From Wenyingzhuangia gilva (GTDB taxonomy: Bacteria > Bacteroidota > Bacteroidia > Flavobacteriales > Flavobacteriaceae), in assembly GCF_030519655.1 (NCBI RefSeq), contig NZ_JAUMIT010000004.1:248001-312000 (forward strand): a stretch of 64,000 nt of DNA. The letters run 5' to 3'. Numbering within the stretch: the first letter of the stretch is position 1; each line of letters opens with the position of its first letter. The translations under genes and the position numbers were made by a program. Below the pieces are notes generated by a model. The model did not search any database and was not told where the DNA came from. It worked only from the letters and a program-made list of their open reading frames with translations. Positions 45,641-55,003 of the stretch are shown in pieces.

Positions 45641-45690
45641 CTCTGTCACTTCGAGTGATTTTGAGGAACGAAAAATTGTATCGAGAAGAA
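45641..45690 (+). repeat. REP-like short element between hemC and hemD
   Basis: The 50-bp gap contains the self-complementary ACTTCGAGT, a TTTTGAGGAACGAAAAAT stretch and GTATCGAGAAG. This resembles a short dispersed element that I recall from many flavobacterial genomes. It has no heptad periodicity and so differs from the elements between the later heme genes. Whether it recurs in this genome cannot be seen in the window. Confidence 0.5.
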
Positions 45691-46344
45691 ATGAAAATTC
45701 TATCAACAAAAGTACTAACCAATCATCAACGAGACTTATTAAAGGAGTTTGATGTGAAAGAAGTATCTATGATTGATATTTCCTTTGGAGAAAATTTTAA
45801 GGTAGAAGAAAACATTCCTTATGCTGTTTTTACCAGTGCAAATGCTGTGAGATCAGTATTTGAAAAGAATAAAAATAAAGCAGAAAGCTTTCAAAAAGTA
45901 TATTGTGTTGGATTAAAAACCAAATCTTTGTTAGAAAGTTTTGGAGTGCAAGTAGAAAATGTTGCAGACAATGCTTTAGCGTTGGCAGATATTTTAGTAG
46001 CCAAAAAAATACAAGACATTCACTTTTATTGTGGAAACCTACGTAATAATGATTTGCCTAATGTAATGGCAGAAAATGGAGTGTTGGTTACAGAATATAT
46101 TGTTTATAAAACAGAACTATGTAAACATACTTTTAACGAAAGTTTTGATGCTATTTTGTTTTTTAGTCCAAGTGGAGTGACTAGTTATGTAAAAGGAAAA
46201 AACAATTGTAATGTAAAAGTTATTTGTATTGGATATACCACTGCTACAGAAGCTTTAGATGCATTTGAAGAAGTATATGTTGCAGAGGAAACAAGTGTAG
46301 AATCTGTCATTCAAAAATTAAAAGAAATTACAAAAAGTAGCTAG
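45691..46344 (+). CDS. hemD: Uroporphyrinogen-III synthase
   Basis: A 217-residue protein that closes hydroxymethylbilane to uroporphyrinogen III. The family is poorly conserved, but [45 protein letters not shown] and [14 protein letters not shown] fit it, and position between hemC and hemB is decisive. A GTG at 45655 is in frame but would translate through the REP-like element, so I prefer ATG 45691. The last codons AGT AGC TAG already belong to the repeat element that follows. Confidence 0.93.
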
Positions 46345-46412
46345 TAGCAAGTATCAAGAGGCTAGATATAGTTTACCAGATACCAGATACCAGATACCAG
46401 ATACCAGATAAA
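46336..46412 (+). repeat. Heptad inverted-repeat element 1 (hemD-hemB gap)
   Basis: The left part is AGTAGCTAGTAGCAAGTATCAAG. The right part has five exact tandem copies of the 7-mer ACCAGAT (46375-46409), ending three bases before the hemB ATG. GTATC of the left arm is complementary to GATAC of the right arm. The hemD stop TAG lies inside the left arm. Confidence 0.85.
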
Positions 46413-47378
46413 ATGAATAGAACAAGACGATTAAGAAAATCCGAAGGAATTAGAAGATTGGTAAGAGAAAATAATCTTACGGTAGATGATTTAATTTATC
46501 CTTTGTTTATAGAGGAAGGAGAAAACATAGAAAAAGAAATTGTTTCTATGCCTGGTATTTTTCGTTTTTCATTAGATAGAATTTCTAAAGAATTAGATGA
46601 GGTAGTGTCTTTAAACATCCCTGCTGTTTTGTTGTTTGGTATTCCATCAGAAAAAGATGAGGAAGGAACAGAGACTTGGAATGATAATGGAATTATGCAA
46701 CAAGCAGTTCGTTTTATTAAAAAGAATTATCCTAGTTTGTATGTCATCACCGACGTTTGTTTTTGTGAATATACAAGTCATGGTCATTGCGGAATTATTC
46801 ATGAGAATGATGTAGATAATGATGCTACTTTAATCAATTTAGCCAAACAGACCATTTCTCATGCCAAAGCAGGAGTAGATATGGTAGCTCCTTCAGGAAT
46901 GATGGATGGAACCATTGCTACCATGAGAGAAGCGTTAGATAATAGTGGTTTTCCAAACATCCCAATTATGGGATATTCCGTAAAATATGCATCTGCATTT
47001 TATGGGCCTTTTAGAGATGCTGCAGATTCTGCTCCAACATTTGGAGATAGAAGAACGTATCAAATGGATCCATCAAACAGATTAGAAGGGCATAGAGAAG
47101 CTTCTTTTGATGATGAAGAAGGAGCGGATATTTTAATGGTAAAACCTGCTTTGTCTTATTTAGATATTATTAGAGATTTAAAAGAAGATTTTGATAGACC
47201 TATTGCTTGTTATAATGTAAGTGGAGAATATGCCATGGTAAAGGCAGCAGCAGAAAAAGGTTGGATTGATGGAGAACGTGTTATGATGGAATCTTTATTG
47301 TCTATGAAAAGAGCAGGAGCAGATATTATCATCACCTATTTTGCCAAAGAAGTAGCTAAAATATTAAGAAACAAGTAG
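46413..47378 (+). CDS. hemB: Delta-aminolevulinic acid dehydratase (porphobilinogen synthase)
   Basis: A 321-residue TIM-barrel enzyme that condenses two aminolevulinate molecules. The zinc-binding triad is Cys116, Cys118 and Cys126 in [14 protein letters not shown]. The two active-site lysines are Lys191 ([19 protein letters not shown]) and Lys244 ([12 protein letters not shown]). The gene ends in TAG, which opens the next repeat element. Confidence 0.97.
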
Positions 47379-47442
47379 CAGGTATCAAGTATCAAGAGTT
47401 TAAAATCTAGATACCAGATACCAGATACCAGATACTAAAAAA
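47374..47442 (+). repeat. Heptad inverted-repeat element 2 (hemB-hemL gap)
   Basis: The left arm has two tandem GTATCAA units (47382-47395) followed by GAG. The right arm has three exact ATACCAG units (47411-47431) and a partial fourth. GTATC units can pair with GATAC units every seven bases, leaving aa/ca mismatches. Confidence 0.87.
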
Positions 47443-48732
47443 ATGAACACAAAAAACTCAGAAAAACTATATAAAAAAGGATTAGTAAATCTAGTAGGAG
47501 CTGTAAACTCTCCTGTTAGAGCCTTTTCATCAGTAGGAGGAAATCCTTTGTTTATTGACAAGGCAAAAGGAGCTTATATCAAAGATGTAGATGGAAACAA
47601 ATACATTGATTTGGTATTGTCTTATGGACCTATGATTTTAGGACATAGAAATAAAAAGGTAGAAAAAGCGGTTACTAAGGCAATTAAGAAAGGAACCTCT
47701 TTTGGAGCTTCTACCAATGCTGAAATTAAATTAGCAAAAATAGTTTGCGATGCTTTTCCGGGAATGGATAAAGTCCGTTTTGTAAACTCTGGTACCGAAG
47801 CGGTATTGAGTGCTATTCGTTTGGCAAGAGCTCACACAGGAAAAGATAAAATTATTAAGTTTTCAGGTTGTTATCACGGGCATATGGATGCCATGTTGGT
47901 AGCAGCAGGTTCTGGTTTGGCAACTTTAAGTTTACCAGGTTCAAAAGGAGTGCCTGCACAATCTGTAGAAAACACGTTGATTGCTGAGTACAATAATTTA
48001 GAAACTGTAAAAGCTCATTTTGACAAGCATGATGATATTGCTGGTGTTATTTTAGAACCAGTAACAGGAAATATGGGAGTGGTACAACCAAGTGATGAGT
48101 TTATCAAAGGATTAAGAGCTTTAACCAAAGAGAAAAATGCGTTATTAATTTGTGATGAAGTGATGACAGGTTTCCGTTCTAAATTTGGAGGAGCACAAGA
48201 ATTGGTTGGAGTTGAAGCAGATATTACTTGTTTAGGAAAAGTTATTGGAGGTGGTTTTCCAGTAGGAGCTTATGGAGCTCGAAACGAAATTATGGAAAAT
48301 GTTGCTCCCTTAGGAGGAATGTATCAAGCAGGAACATTGTCAGGAAATCCTATTGCGATGGCAGCAGGAATTTCAACCTTAACAGAGTTAAAACATCAAA
48401 ATCCATATGACAAGTTCAATACTGTTGCAGAAAAAATAGAAAAGATGTTATTGTCATCAGCTAAAAAATATGGTGTTGATTTAGTGGTGAATAGATTTGG
48501 TTCTATGATCAATCCATTTTTTACCAATAAAGAAGTAACAAACTTTACTGATGCACAAACTTCAGATACAGATAGGTTTGCAAAATTCTTTTGGGCAATG
48601 ATAGAAAACGGTGTGTTTTTACCACCATCACAATTTGAAGCTTGGTTTTTATCGTCTACGATTACCATGAAAGAATTAAAGAAATTAGAAGTTTCGATAG
48701 AGAAATCGATGTTGGTAGTTGGTAATTTGTAA
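47443..48732 (+). CDS. hemL: Glutamate-1-semialdehyde 2,1-aminomutase
   Basis: A 429-residue PLP enzyme that makes 5-aminolevulinate. It shows VGAVNSPVRAFSSVGG, FVNSGTEAVLSAIRLARAHTG, GCYHGHMDAMLV and LLICDEVMTGFR. The PLP lysine is Lys266 in CLGKVIGGGFPVGAYG. It completes the C5 route with hemA and hemB. Unlike its neighbours it ends in TAA, and no heptad element follows it. Confidence 0.97.
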   Translation: MNTKNSEKLYKKGLVNLVGAVNSPVRAFSSVGGNPLFIDKAKGAYIKDVDGNKYIDLVLSYGPMILGHRNKKVEKAVTKAIKKGTSFGASTNAEIKLAKIVCDAFPGMDKVRFVNSGTEAVLSAIRLARAHTGKDKIIKFSGCYHGHMDAMLVAAGSGLATLSLPGSKGVPAQSVENTLIAEYNNLETVKAHFDKHDDIAGVILEPVTGNMGVVQPSDEFIKGLRALTKEKNALLICDEVMTGFRSKFGGAQELVGVEADITCLGKVIGGGFPVGAYGARNEIMENVAPLGGMYQAGTLSGNPIAMAAGISTLTELKHQNPYDKFNTVAEKIEKMLLSSAKKYGVDLVVNRFGSMINPFFTNKEVTNFTDAQTSDTDRFAKFFWAMIENGVFLPPSQFEAWFLSSTITMKELKKLEVSIEKSMLVVGNL

Positions 48733-48765
48733 TTGGAGAGACAGTAAGAATTATAATTATATAAG

Positions 48766-49122
48766 ATGCATCATAATTTTAGAGAATTAGAAATTTGGAA
48801 AGAATCAAAAGATTTAAGTATTCAAATTTATAAAATAACCCAAACATTTTCTAAACAAGAAGTGTATGGAATTGTTTCTCAAATTTGTAGAGCATCTGTA
48901 TCAATTCCATCAAATATAGCCGAGGGATCTGGAAGAAATAGTAATAAAGATTTTTCAAGATTTATTAATATAGCATTGGGTTCTTCTTTTGAGTTAGAGA
49001 CTCAGTTAATAATAGCACTTGAATTAGAATATATAAGCAAAGAAGATTTTGAAAACTTGATAAATAATCTACAAATGATTCAAAGAAAGTTATCAGGTTT
49101 TAATAAATATTTACAAAAATAG
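48766..49122 (+). CDS. Four-helix-bundle protein (23S rRNA intervening-sequence protein family)
   Basis: A 118-residue protein with the family's usual features: FRELEIWKESKDLSIQIYKIT, FSKQEVYGIVSQICRASVSIPSNIAEGSGRNSNKDFSRFINIALGSSFELETQL and a C-terminal helix. Relatives are encoded by 23S rRNA intervening sequences and by many scattered loci in Bacteroidota; their function is unknown. Its place between hemL and hemE looks like an insertion, since it has no link to heme. It ends in TAG and is followed at once by a heptad element. Confidence 0.9.
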   Translation: MHHNFRELEIWKESKDLSIQIYKITQTFSKQEVYGIVSQICRASVSIPSNIAEGSGRNSNKDFSRFINIALGSSFELETQLIIALELEYISKEDFENLINNLQMIQRKLSGFNKYLQK

Positions 49123-49202
49123 TAGTTAGGTATTAAGAGTAAGTATTTGGATAATGATATCCAACTACCAACTACCAACTACCAACTACCAACTACATCA
49201 AT
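49120..49202 (+). repeat. Heptad inverted-repeat element 3 (four-helix-bundle gene-hemE gap)
   Basis: Five exact tandem copies of CCAACTA (49161-49195). On the left, GTAGTTAGGTA is complementary to TACC/AACTAC of the right, and TTGGATA pairs with TATCCAA around the centre. Unit sequence differs from elements 1 and 2, but period and arm arrangement are the same. Confidence 0.87.
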
Positions 49203-50228
49203 ATGATAAAAAACGACTTATACCTAAGAGCCTTAAAAGGCGAAACAGTAGAAAGACCTCCAGTTTGGATGATGAGACAAGCAGGGAGATATTTACCAGA
49301 GTTTCAAGAAATAAAAAAGAAGTACGATTTCTTTACTCGTTGTCAAACGCCTGAGTTGGCAGCAGAAATTACAGTACAACCAATCCGTAGATATGGAATG
49401 GATGCTGCTATTTTGTTTTCGGACATTTTGGTCATTCCACAAGCCATGAATATTGAGGTGGAAATGAAATCAGGAATTGGGCCTTGGTTGCCAAATCCTA
49501 TTCGTACCATGCAAGATGTGGAGAAAGTAATTGTTCCAGATATTGATGAGACTTTAGGATATGTAATGGATGCCATTAAACTAACCAAAGAAATGTTGAA
49601 TGATGACATTCCGTTAATTGGTTTTGCAGGTTCTCCATGGACTATTTTGTGTTACTGTATTCAAGGGCAAGGATCAAAGAATTTTGACATGGCTAAGGAG
49701 TTTTGTTTTACACAACCTTTGGCAGCTCATGCATTGTTACAAAAAATAACAGATACGACTATTGCTTATCTTAAAAAGAAAGTAGAGGCAGGTGTAAATG
49801 CAGTTCAAGTATTTGACTCTTGGGGAGGTATGTTGTCTCCGGTAGATTATCAAGAATTTTCTTGGAAATATATCAATCAAATTATTGAAGCTTTAAAAGA
49901 TGATGCCCCAGTCATTGCTTTTGGAAAAGGATGTTGGTTTGCTTTAGAAGACATGTCTAAATCTAACGCATCTGCTTTAGGAGTAGATTGGACAATTACT
50001 CCAGAATGGGCCAGAAAATTAACGGGTGGAAACATTACTTTACAAGGTAATTTTGATCCTACACGTTTGTTTTCTCCACCCGCAGAAATAAAAAAGCAAG
50101 TAACCACTATGATTGATGCTTTTGGAAAAGACAAATACATTGTGAATTTAGGTCACGGTATTTTACCAAATATTGGTTTAGATAACGCCAAAGCATTTAT
50201 TGAAGCGGTTAAAGAATATGGAAATTAG
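49203..50228 (+). CDS. hemE: Uroporphyrinogen decarboxylase
   Basis: A 341-residue TIM-barrel enzyme that removes four carboxyl groups to give coproporphyrinogen III. Signatures are [68 protein letters not shown] and [10 protein letters not shown]. It ends in TAG inside the next element. Confidence 0.97.
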
Positions 50229-50300
50229 TAGTTAGTACTGGGTACAGAGTATTAAGTTTTTAATCTCTGTACTCAATACTTTGTACTTAATACTAATATC
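50226..50300 (+). repeat. Inverted-repeat element 4 (hemE-hemF gap)
   Basis: Left arm units AGTACTGGGTACAGAGTATTAAG face right arm units CTCTGTACTCAATACTTTGTACTTAATACT around TTTTTAAT. GTACAGAG pairs perfectly with CTCTGTAC, and AGTATTAAG with CTTAATACT. GTAC/ATAC recurs at intervals near seven bases, although copies are less regular than in elements 1 to 3. Confidence 0.8.
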
Positions 50301-52747: not shown

Positions 52748-55003
52748 ATGTTTCTGTTTATTTTAAAATCAAGTGCTTGTTTGGCTAGTTTTATATTGTT
52801 CTATAGGCTTTGTTTAGAAAAAACGAGCGTACATGTTTTTAAACGATTTTATTTATTAGGTGCTTTGTTATTATCAATAGGGATTCCATTAATAACATTT
52901 ACGCAATATATAGAAGTAGAAAGATCTGTTTCATTTTTATCTACGCAAAACTTTATTTTAACCGATACTATAACTAATGAACCTATAAACATAGATTATA
53001 CATCCACTATTTTATGGAGTATTTATTTATTAGGTGTTGTTCTTTTTTTGTTTAGATTTTTAAAGAATTTATTTCAATTAAATCAAAAAATAAGAAAAAA
53101 CGTAAAATTTAAGAATAAAGAATTTACCAATGTTTTATTAAATGATTTAGTTCATCCACATACTTTTTTGAATTACATATTTCTGAATAAAACTAATTAC
53201 GAAAATAATCAACTTCCTGATGAAGTTTTATTACATGAGGAGACTCATGCTAAACAAAAGCATACCATAGATATATTATTTATTGAGTTTTTACAAATTA
53301 CATTTTGGTTTAATCCTTTATTGTATGTTATAAAAAAAGATATAAAATTAAATCATGAATTCTTAGCAGATCATGCGGTTTTAAAAAGAGGAGTAAACAA
53401 ATCTACTTATCAAAAAATATTATTAGCATTTGCTACTCCCAATAATTATATTAAAAATCATTCCTCTTTAGCAAATTCAATCAATTATTTATTAATCAAA
53501 AAAAGATTTACAGTTATGAAAATACAAACATCAAAAACAGTCTTTTGGTTTAGAAGTTTACTACTACTACCAATATTATGTGTTTTAATTTATGGTTTTA
53601 GTCAACACAAAGTAGTTGAAAAACCTGTTGAGATTCATGAAACAGAGGTTACCGAAGCTATGATACAAGAATATATAGAATTTATAGATAAATATGAAAA
53701 AACCAAAATAATTGATTTTTTAGTATATGAAAGAATAGTAGCTATCTATGAATTAATGTCAGATAAACAACGTAATACGGTTAAAAAATATCCTGACAAT
53801 ATGATACCTAGCTTGGCTAAGGTTAAGTATAAAATACCTATTGAAAATGAATTTAATCAATGGAAGAATAGCGAAAAATTTGCTATTTGGATTAATGGAA
53901 GATCAGTAAAAAATACTGAATTAGATAATTATAAAGCAACGGATTTTAAATATTACACTAGTAGTTTTGTTCATAATAATGCTAGAAGTAAAAAATATCC
54001 TCAACCATATCAAAATCACTTATACACGGAAAAAGGATTTGAAGAAACATATTTAAAATATGGTATAAATAAGTTTAGAAGATTATTTGATGAATATAAA
54101 AAACTAGATGATATAAATGATTTTGAAAAACAACTTATAAAAGTACAGTTAGAAAAGCTATACAAATCATTATCTAATCAAGATATTAAAAAATATAATA
54201 TTAAGAATCCTGCTACTTTAAATGTTTTTAAGAAAAACATTAATAAAGACACTATCCCTAAAAATATAGAGAGTTATGTACAGGCAAGAACATATGTATT
54301 GAATTTTATAAAAAAACAAGATATAGATTACCCGTTAGGTTATTTAACTCTGTCAGAAACTGAGCAAAAATATTTTAACAAACTATACAGGCTAATGTCT
54401 GATGAATATATGAAATTAAGTGAAAGTGAAAGAAAAAGTGCTCCTTTACAAATAGCTCCTCCTCCTTCACCAAAAGAATATGAATTAATAGACGGAAAAT
54501 TTCACAAGAAAAAGGTTGTAGGTACGTTTCCTCCTCCGCCACCACCACTTTCTCCACTGCCTAAAAATCCATCAAAAGCACTGATAGAATTAAAGAAAAA
54601 ATATGATGAGCAACAAGAGATATACGGTAAGTTAATAAGTTCTCTTATAAATGAGAAAAAAGGAACTACAGAAGAACTTAGAAAAGCTAGTGTGCATGTT
54701 ACAAATTTGTATAAGGAATATTCAGCGATGGCTGAAAAGGAAAAAGACAAAAGAAATAAATCAAAAGTAGAAGGGTTTCCTCCTCCGCCACCACCACTTT
54801 CTCCACTGCCTAAAAATCCATCAAAAGCATTGTTAGAATTAAAGAAAAAGTATGATCAGGAAATAGCAATATACGGAAAACTAATAGGTTCTTTTATTAG
54901 TGAGAAAAAAGGAACTACAGAAGAACTTAGAAAAGCTAGTGTGCATGTTACAAATTTGTATAAGGAATATTCAGCGATGGCTAAAAAGGAAAAAGAAAAT
55001 TAA
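52748..55003 (+). CDS. BlaR1-like M56 membrane metalloprotease with duplicated C-terminal segment
   Basis: A 751-residue protein. The first 300 residues have three or four membrane segments and the M56 zinc protease domain. The catalytic HEETH is at residues 163-167 (VLLHEETHAKQKHTIDILFIEFLQITFWFNPLLYVIKKD), and HEFLADHAVLKRG supplies a further ligand. After a membrane segment (about 267-285) comes a long, charged, probably periplasmic part. No penicillin-binding sensor domain (SxxK, SxN, KTG) was seen. Near the end two 74-residue segments starting FPPPPPPLSPLPKNPSKAL are almost identical. It should cleave or signal to the BlaI repressor; the inducer is unknown. Confidence 0.88.
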   Translation: MFLFILKSSACLASFILFYRLCLEKTSVHVFKRFYLLGALLLSIGIPLITFTQYIEVERSVSFLSTQNFILTDTITNEPINIDYTSTILWSIYLLGVVLFLFRFLKNLFQLNQKIRKNVKFKNKEFTNVLLNDLVHPHTFLNYIFLNKTNYENNQLPDEVLLHEETHAKQKHTIDILFIEFLQITFWFNPLLYVIKKDIKLNHEFLADHAVLKRGVNKSTYQKILLAFATPNNYIKNHSSLANSINYLLIKKRFTVMKIQTSKTVFWFRSLLLLPILCVLIYGFSQHKVVEKPVEIHETEVTEAMIQEYIEFIDKYEKTKIIDFLVYERIVAIYELMSDKQRNTVKKYPDNMIPSLAKVKYKIPIENEFNQWKNSEKFAIWINGRSVKNTELDNYKATDFKYYTSSFVHNNARSKKYPQPYQNHLYTEKGFEETYLKYGINKFRRLFDEYKKLDDINDFEKQLIKVQLEKLYKSLSNQDIKKYNIKNPATLNVFKKNINKDTIPKNIESYVQARTYVLNFIKKQDIDYPLGYLTLSETEQKYFNKLYRLMSDEYMKLSESERKSAPLQIAPPPSPKEYELIDGKFHKKKVVGTFPPPPPPLSPLPKNPSKALIELKKKYDEQQEIYGKLISSLINEKKGTTEELRKASVHVTNLYKEYSAMAEKEKDKRNKSKVEGFPPPPPPLSPLPKNPSKALLELKKKYDQEIAIYGKLIGSFISEKKGTTEELRKASVHVTNLYKEYSAMAKKEKEN
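54527..54997 (+). repeat. Two-copy 222-bp repeat inside the BlaR1-like gene
   Basis: Units at 54527-54748 and 54776-54997 have a period of 249 bp (83 codons). They are nearly identical at DNA level over the proline-rich start and the GTTEELRKASVHVTNLYKEYSAMA end. The high identity indicates a recent duplication or ongoing conversion. Confidence 0.9.

Follow-up and report, generated by a model that had tools for sequence, protein, structure and literature searches.

The heme biosynthesis operon of Wenyingzhuangia gilva (Flavobacteriaceae) contains four intergenic gaps filled by sequences that repeat with a 7-bp period and fold into hairpins, and the question raised by this locus is what such sequences are and how they keep their period when the repeated units differ from gap to gap. 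Here, we analyze these gaps in a 64,000-nucleotide stretch of the genome (assembly GCF_030519655.1, contig NZ_JAUMIT010000004.1, positions 248,001 to 312,000, forward strand; hereafter, the window, whose coordinates are used throughout), along with the S23 gene located in one of the gaps and its relatives in other genomes. The hairpins probably belong to a widespread family of elements, each made up of two arms, the 5′ one with a period of 7 or 8 nucleotides and the 3′ one usually complementary to it, with or without an S23/IVP gene between them.

An S23 gene inside one of four period-7 elements

The open reading frame (ORF) between hemL and hemE (48766-49122, + strand, as are all features below) encodes a four-helix-bundle protein of the Pfam family 23S_rRNA_IVP/S23 (PF05635, E 1.2e-40), the profile of which matches PDB chains 2gsc and 2rld. 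An earlier note on this sequence treated the gene as a mere neighbor of the third hairpin element; it lies inside that element, because the repeats start upstream of it and overlap the hemL stop codon. The left arm (48712-48738) consists of TTGGTAG-type units running across the stop, with period 7 detected by Tandem Repeats Finder (TRF) at 48712-48736; the final HemL codons are encoded within these repeats, and the arm is shared with a congener (G101). The right part (49120-49202) comprises degenerate inner units and five CCAACTA copies (perfect period-7 TRF array at 49161-49196, 5.1 copies). As a separate observation, the C-terminal residues of HemL vary among congeners where arm repeats encode them, for example, VASSK-stop in G100.

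The other three elements contain no ORF. Element 1, between hemD and hemB (46336-46412), has a right arm of five ACCAGAT copies and left repeats overlapping the end of hemD (TRF repeats at 46335-46358 and a perfect period-7 array at 46374-46410, 5.3 copies); element 2, between hemB and hemL (47370-47442), pairs GTATCAA with GATACCA units (TRF repeats at 47372-47396 and a perfect period-7 array at 47409-47435, 3.9 copies); and element 4, between hemE and hemF (50226-50300), pairs GTACAGAG with CTCTGTAC and yields a looser period-7 array at 50268-50298. The heme-gap arms overlap stop codons. On the element reading as a whole, which we consider likely, the gaps are occupied by a single S23-encoding element (48712-49202) together with three relatives that lack the ORF.

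Folding of the gap RNAs gave z scores of -3.1 (hemD-hemB), -6.8 (hemB-hemL), -4.2 (S23-hemE), and -5.1 (hemE-hemF), with none of 200 shuffles as stable as the native RNA in any of the four. A strict score, counting Watson-Crick pairs only, was applied to 22 hem gaps from seven genomes (hemD-hemB, hemB-hemL, and hemE-hemF where present, and three hemC-hemD gaps; the S23-hemE gaps lie outside this sample): 10 of the 22 were matched by at most 1 of 60 shuffles, and 15 contained a lag-7 segment of at least 11. Under this score, 22 of 60 shuffles were as good as the bare hemD-hemB gap, so that its stem is weak. The earlier note's description of four 7-periodic gaps is borne out, with three perfect tandems and one looser array, and its complementarity of left and right units stands in the folding of all four and falls short, on the strict score, at hemD-hemB.

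Similar elements, which the note expected elsewhere in the genome, were found by scanning 464 kb (20 stretches of 20 kb and the window). Outside ORFs, at a score of at least 16, there were 14 lag-7 segments compared to 0-1 for each of the lags 4-6 and 8-13, along with 6 segments at lag 14 and 2 at lag 15. Hairpin and lag-7 scores both reached at least 12 in 8 of 190 gaps, in one after shuffling, and in none when lag 8 was used. Outside the heme operon, lag-7 arrays are seen, for instance, as a cluster in L060 and singly named in two further stretches, L064 and L067, whereas L075 has CACTACT in about nine copies. Most gaps are without an element, because the gap-averaged lag-7 autocorrelation shows only a slight excess in co-directional gaps (0.330 with the hem gaps included and 0.324 without them); it was 0.348 in convergent gaps and 0.325, no excess, in divergent ones.

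Periodic arms accompany S23 genes and follow their lineage

The genome contains 9 PF05635 matches at 8 loci, all of them, by eye, flanked by 7- or 8-periodic arms in short intergenic gaps. One is hemL-hemE; the others we take, from the translations of neighboring genes, to be groES-groEL, hisH-hisA, clpX-dnaG, sufA-sufB, ffh-folD, moaE-moaC, and fcl-gmd. Of 296 sampled genomes of the phylum, 232 had an S23 match, as did 74 of 100 from the family.

Two sets of flanks, both biased toward high-scoring S23 genes and possibly overlapping in species, were compared. The first united 35 loci from the family and from W. gilva itself with 80 more, the best of 590 relatives detected when named bacterial and archaeal genomes were scanned with the profile (115 in total, with the broken own-locus rows L010, L013, and L014 excluded beforehand); one locus with short flanks was dropped, leaving 114. 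The flanks of 93 of these reached a complementarity of at least 12, compared to an expectation of 23.4 when flanks of mismatched loci are paired. Lag-7 segments of at least 12 occurred in 55, lag-8 segments in 17, and segments at each other lag from 4 to 13 in 0-2; the autocorrelation had its main maxima at lags 7, 14, and 21 and a lesser one at lag 8. Judged by record titles alone, many of these loci come from Bacteroidota, and others from metagenome-assembled genomes titled Nitrospirae, Desulfosarcina, Cloacimonadota, Chloroflexi, Fibrobacter, and Gracilibacteria. In the second set, the 89 loci of a phylum search, 73 were complementary against 19.5 expected, and 54 had period 7, 13 period 8, and 22 no clear period, with no other period represented. 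The purine and G/C bias of the arms was also measured and, being symmetric under strand reversal, was not used. A degenerate left and a tandem right arm, described in the earlier note for the heme gaps, is no rule at S23 loci: the left arm was the more regular in 55 of 114 and the right in another 55.

Plasmid and viral-like sequences, kept out of these statistics, carry such arms as well. Among 25 plasmid records with an S23 match, ten loci were retrieved, all cyanobacterial: a lag-7 arm of at least 12 was present in eight, a lag-8 arm in a ninth, and neither in one, and complementarity reached at least 12 in seven. One of the cyanobacterial plasmid elements is flanked by cas6 and cas4, and another by cas10 and a cmr3-family gene (L375, L383). 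Arms are also present in viral-like IMG/VR contigs, as 14 of 19 examined loci had a lag-7 arm of at least 12 and one a lag-8 arm (of 23 loci, L361, L362, L366, and L373 were dropped as likely duplicates with equal scores). Carriage by phages was rejected, the window S23 having no match among 50,697 phage records.

For the lineage analysis, 138 loci were gathered, 131 of which had an intact S23 ORF and sufficient flanks; 73 were assigned period 7, 16 period 8, none period 5, 6, or 9-11, and 42 were left unassigned. Between loci with unrelated neighbors, mean arm similarity was 19.5 for pairs sharing 30-39% S23 identity (n=1948), 26.6 at 60-69% (n=82), and 37.7 at 70-79% (n=12). On an S23 tree of 78 rows (one per site and period), 9 period changes were counted compared to a shuffled mean of 14.7, and none of 500 shuffles was as low; the closest S23 relative at another site had period 8 for 10 of 16 period-8 rows vs 5 of 62 period-7 rows (Fisher 1.2e-5). 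Arm sequence and period are co-inherited with the S23 lineage at unrelated sites.

Arrays without an ORF are likewise associated with S23 at the level of the genome. Nine S23-positive genomes contained 48 lag-7 or lag-8 arrays in 1200 kb, and 47 of these are not near an S23 gene; seven S23-negative genomes nearly lacked arrays, with 2 in 720 kb. At five control lags, the two groups had 7 and 4 segments, respectively. Array density per genome differed between the two groups with a Mann-Whitney p of 0.0008, uncorrected for phylogeny. Long intergenic mosaics of many heptad types (ACTTCGG, ACTCCCG, GTGAGTA, and others) were noticed in L261 (G078:C1:2700001-2720000) and L061, and no S23 gene was found within these two stretches.

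Turnover and placement of the elements among congeners

The heme operons of six congeners were compared, one of them cut by a contig end and one without hemB at this place. Their gaps mostly hold elements, frequently with heptads that differ markedly on both sides of the hairpin, even though HemE is 95-98% identical between congeners, and the elements also differ by whole units. The S23 protein encoded between hemL and hemE is 92% identical to that of the window in one congener and 54-67% identical in others, and its gene is broken in G102. The same genome holds a relative of element 4 with, by eye, one paired change on both sides. The elements thus keep period and complementarity while primary sequence changes, as the earlier note had anticipated; its stronger formulation, that structure rather than sequence is maintained, stands insofar as pairing and period persist, but stem structure alone is not the conserved property, because an 8-nucleotide class exists and some arms are direct repeats.

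Presence varies, too. At groES-groEL, only W. gilva has an element, directly 3′ of the groES stop codon, and all six congeners show a bare gap, a clean empty site; compared by eye, the element stands behind the stop codon with no clear target-site duplication. At hisH-hisA, S23 is present in four genomes, the same arms occur without an ORF in one, and ORF-less elements with other units are found in two. At ffh-folD, an S23 gene is present in W. gilva, and all six congeners show, by eye, ORF-less repeats; presence at hemB-hemL also varies (G100). The arms of the elements vary freely.

The elements are likely to be placed at the stop codon of the upstream gene, mostly in operons, as part of the same overall reading. 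Measured from the stop codon of the upstream gene, the left repeats begin at a median offset of 0 (middle half -4 to +7, n=80), a crowding at zero that arises partly from short gaps and from repeats that supply stops. TAG serves as this stop codon in 51 of 106 loci, vs 45 of 188 other ORFs of the same loci. Of 80 loci, 52 have both neighbors in the orientation of S23 and one has both in the opposite orientation, the remainder being mixed or not determinable; one cyanobacterial plasmid S23 runs against nrdB and nrdA.

Several further observations were made at these and neighboring sites. A fad-type gene pair (e.g., L016, L022, L029, L117, L118) has S23 at seemingly one site in many genera, with gene ends reading about KPLRN-stop and MKTAYIVKAYRTAVGKA and arms that differ among genera. 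An S23 subfamily with the motif MES.LEVWKLAHQL, found in three genomes of the genus (L158, L159, L006), has direct CGANNAN-type arms at non-homologous sites, and the protein of L165 resembles this subfamily and likewise has direct arms of that type. The hemC-hemD gap (45641-45687) holds a different, CGAG-containing sequence that recurs in some congeners, and CGAG-containing palindromes also occur in L060 (515-601) and L068 (6443-6587). Within a 751-aa ORF (52748-55003), a segment of 249 bp is tandemly duplicated (54526-54996; 1.9 copies, 92%).

Known relatives, rival explanations, and a candidate mechanism

The earlier note knew of no named element with this architecture; partial precedents exist in cyanobacterial hairpins, trnL intron stems, and Coxiella rRNA, and such hairpins are, in this sense, partly known already. 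The intervening sequence (IVS) of Coxiella rRNA has a 28-bp terminal stem and two or three tandem, strain-variable GACAGAT heptamers ahead of an S23p ORF; this IVS has been called selfish, and Leptospira and others are cited as further hosts (PMC4990558; here and below, cited papers are represented by part of their text). Element 3 shares the S23p ORF between complementary arms, and elements 1, 2, and 4 are ORF-less, but IVSs reside in rRNA helices, whereas element 3 lies at a protein-operon stop codon between hemL and hemE; an ORF-less family, a period-8 class, and co-inheritance of arms with S23 are not described in the part of PMC4990558 drawn on here. No Rfam match at the gathering score was obtained for 13 S23 loci belonging to other phyla or to unplaced bins, and in 144 kb including the window the sole matches were two tRNAs, both outside the window; a known Rfam RNA was rejected as an explanation of the heme region, which gave two sub-threshold matches and nothing more.

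Cyanobacterial short tandemly repeated repetitive (STRR) sequences are usually 7-bp repeats that form a hairpin, for example, in the hupS-hupL gap, with function unknown (PMC2670836), and the P6b stem of the Nostoc trnL intron is always built on one of two 7-nucleotide motifs with similar structure (PMC4476775). Intergenic hairpins of 7-nucleotide tandem repeats are found here as well (hemD-hemB failing on the strict score), in Flavobacteriaceae rather than Cyanobacteria, and in a small protein comparison the nearest named matches were likewise from Flavobacteriaceae, at 61-63% identity; an S23 link is not described in the available parts of these two papers, and 9 of the 10 cyanobacterial plasmid S23 loci fetched here have a lag-7 or lag-8 arm. 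The TAACTGA heptamer arrays, likewise intergenic, occur in overlapping host groups (Beggiatoaceae, Cyanobacteria, Bacteroidetes), but are direct repeats of one unit, located in the main strain mostly just 5′ of start codons; a post-transcriptional regulator has been proposed, and S23 is not mentioned in the text consulted (PMC4679880). One S23 locus of W. gilva, L011, has TCAGTTT and AAACTGA arms.

Host maintenance would account for the folding far beyond that of shuffles and for the lag-7 segments retained in 15 of the 22 hem gaps despite sequence change: selection would keep the stems in operon mRNAs to stabilize the transcript, to allow cutting by RNase III, or to couple translation, with S23 as a bound regulator or a passenger, and transcript stability or translation coupling has been suggested for STRR hairpins (PMC2670836). 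We regard this explanation as unlikely, given that elements are gained or lost at the same gap among congeners (groES-groEL, and hemB-hemL of G100), that direct-repeat arms occur, that direct arrays lie outside operon gaps, such as the nine or so CACTACT copies in a convergent gap, and that arms track the S23 lineage at unrelated sites. Co-inheritance with S23, the empty site, and S23-type arms without an ORF thus argue for an element rather than a host regulatory heme RNA. A heme-specific regulatory element was rejected, as the same gaps of congeners hold unrelated heptads and similar elements occur in other operons. Slightly less probable still is a mutational by-product, whereby polymerase slippage and template switching generate 7- or 8-nucleotide tandem inverted repeats among which S23 merely sits. 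Slippage alone predicts neither a fixed period of 7 or 8 nor a gene in the loop, sampled S23-less genomes are nearly devoid of such arrays, and periods 7 and 8 are clustered on the S23 tree, although congeners do differ by whole units and, in a survey cited in PMC4679880, most genomes have heptanucleotides as their most frequent long simple repeats.

Mobilization in trans by a known enzyme, either a reverse transcriptase similar to those of diversity-generating retroelements (DGR) or group II introns, or a Y1 transposase of the repetitive extragenic palindrome (REP) type, is suggested by the homology of PF05635 to the DGR accessory protein Avd (PMC10053308), but appears very improbable. The reverse transcriptase domain RVT_1 was found in 26 of 100 family genomes, vs S23 in 74, and is absent from the S23-rich genomes G007 (16 S23 genes), G073 (12), and G006 (11); Y1_Tnp was found in 39 of 100 and is absent from W. 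gilva, G054 (13 S23 genes), and G073. No reverse transcriptase was detected among eight heme-operon proteins scanned, the single RVT_1 match of the genome being on another contig. An obligate partner of either kind is not supported, S23-rich G073 having neither; the recombinase search covered RVT_1 and Y1_Tnp.

The explanation that we favor, a family of S23-associated hairpin elements, includes mobility and binding of the arms by S23 as predictions from sequence comparison. S23 has been described as a protein without known function, and its Xanthomonas representative as a homopentamer of four-helix bundles (PMC4990558). Such a pentamer, as an Avd homolog, would bind its own arm repeats, and the element would copy into new stop-codon sites via host enzymes. 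The arms would drift by slippage of 7 or 8 nucleotides and arm-to-arm templating, such that spacing and pairing would be kept while sequence turns over. Loss of the ORF would leave hairpins similar to miniature inverted-repeat transposable elements, as in the other heme gaps, and in mRNA the stem would probably be cut or tolerated, like rRNA IVSs.

A number of observations weigh against this explanation. The tracking of S23 by the period may need no ruler in the protein and reflect simple co-inheritance of the arms, and the S23 tree is poorly resolved; 42 of 131 and 22 of 89 loci show no clear period, and the arms at L006, L158, and L159 are direct rather than inverted. Arrays are few in the S23-positive genomes G061 (1) and G071 (3), overlapping S23-negative G025 (2). 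The groES-groEL copy of S23 is already a broken gene, and many same-site S23 genes may be old and vertically inherited. Aligned own S23 proteins are 22-40% identical to the window S23, and the ORF-less hem units are, by eye, unlike own S23 arms, save for the GTAC type (hisH-hisA, hemE-hemF). Mobilization and arm binding stand as predictions, and we know of no catalytic domain in S23.

A broader proposal, which we advance tentatively, as a possibility that we would not expect to hold in full, is that S23/IVP is the founding gene of a class of mobile elements lacking a transposase, integrase, or reverse transcriptase of their own, in which a pentameric ring would read 7- or 8-nucleotide repeats, set the period, rebuild the arms, and spread to operon stop codons across bacteria; rRNA IVSs, STRRs, trnL P6b heptads, and TAACTGA arrays would then be its traces. 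The open-access literature, in the portion examined and with subscription papers and preprints largely outside it, contains no general link between S23 and heptads, no lineage-specific period, and no ORF-less derivatives. If the proposal is true, several unexplained bacterial repeat families would be tied to one protein, S23. If S23 and the heptad hairpins are halves of one element, the predicted ligand of S23 is its own arm repeat, with 7- or 8-nucleotide spacing depending on lineage, and transposase-free spread of DNA inside operons may operate.

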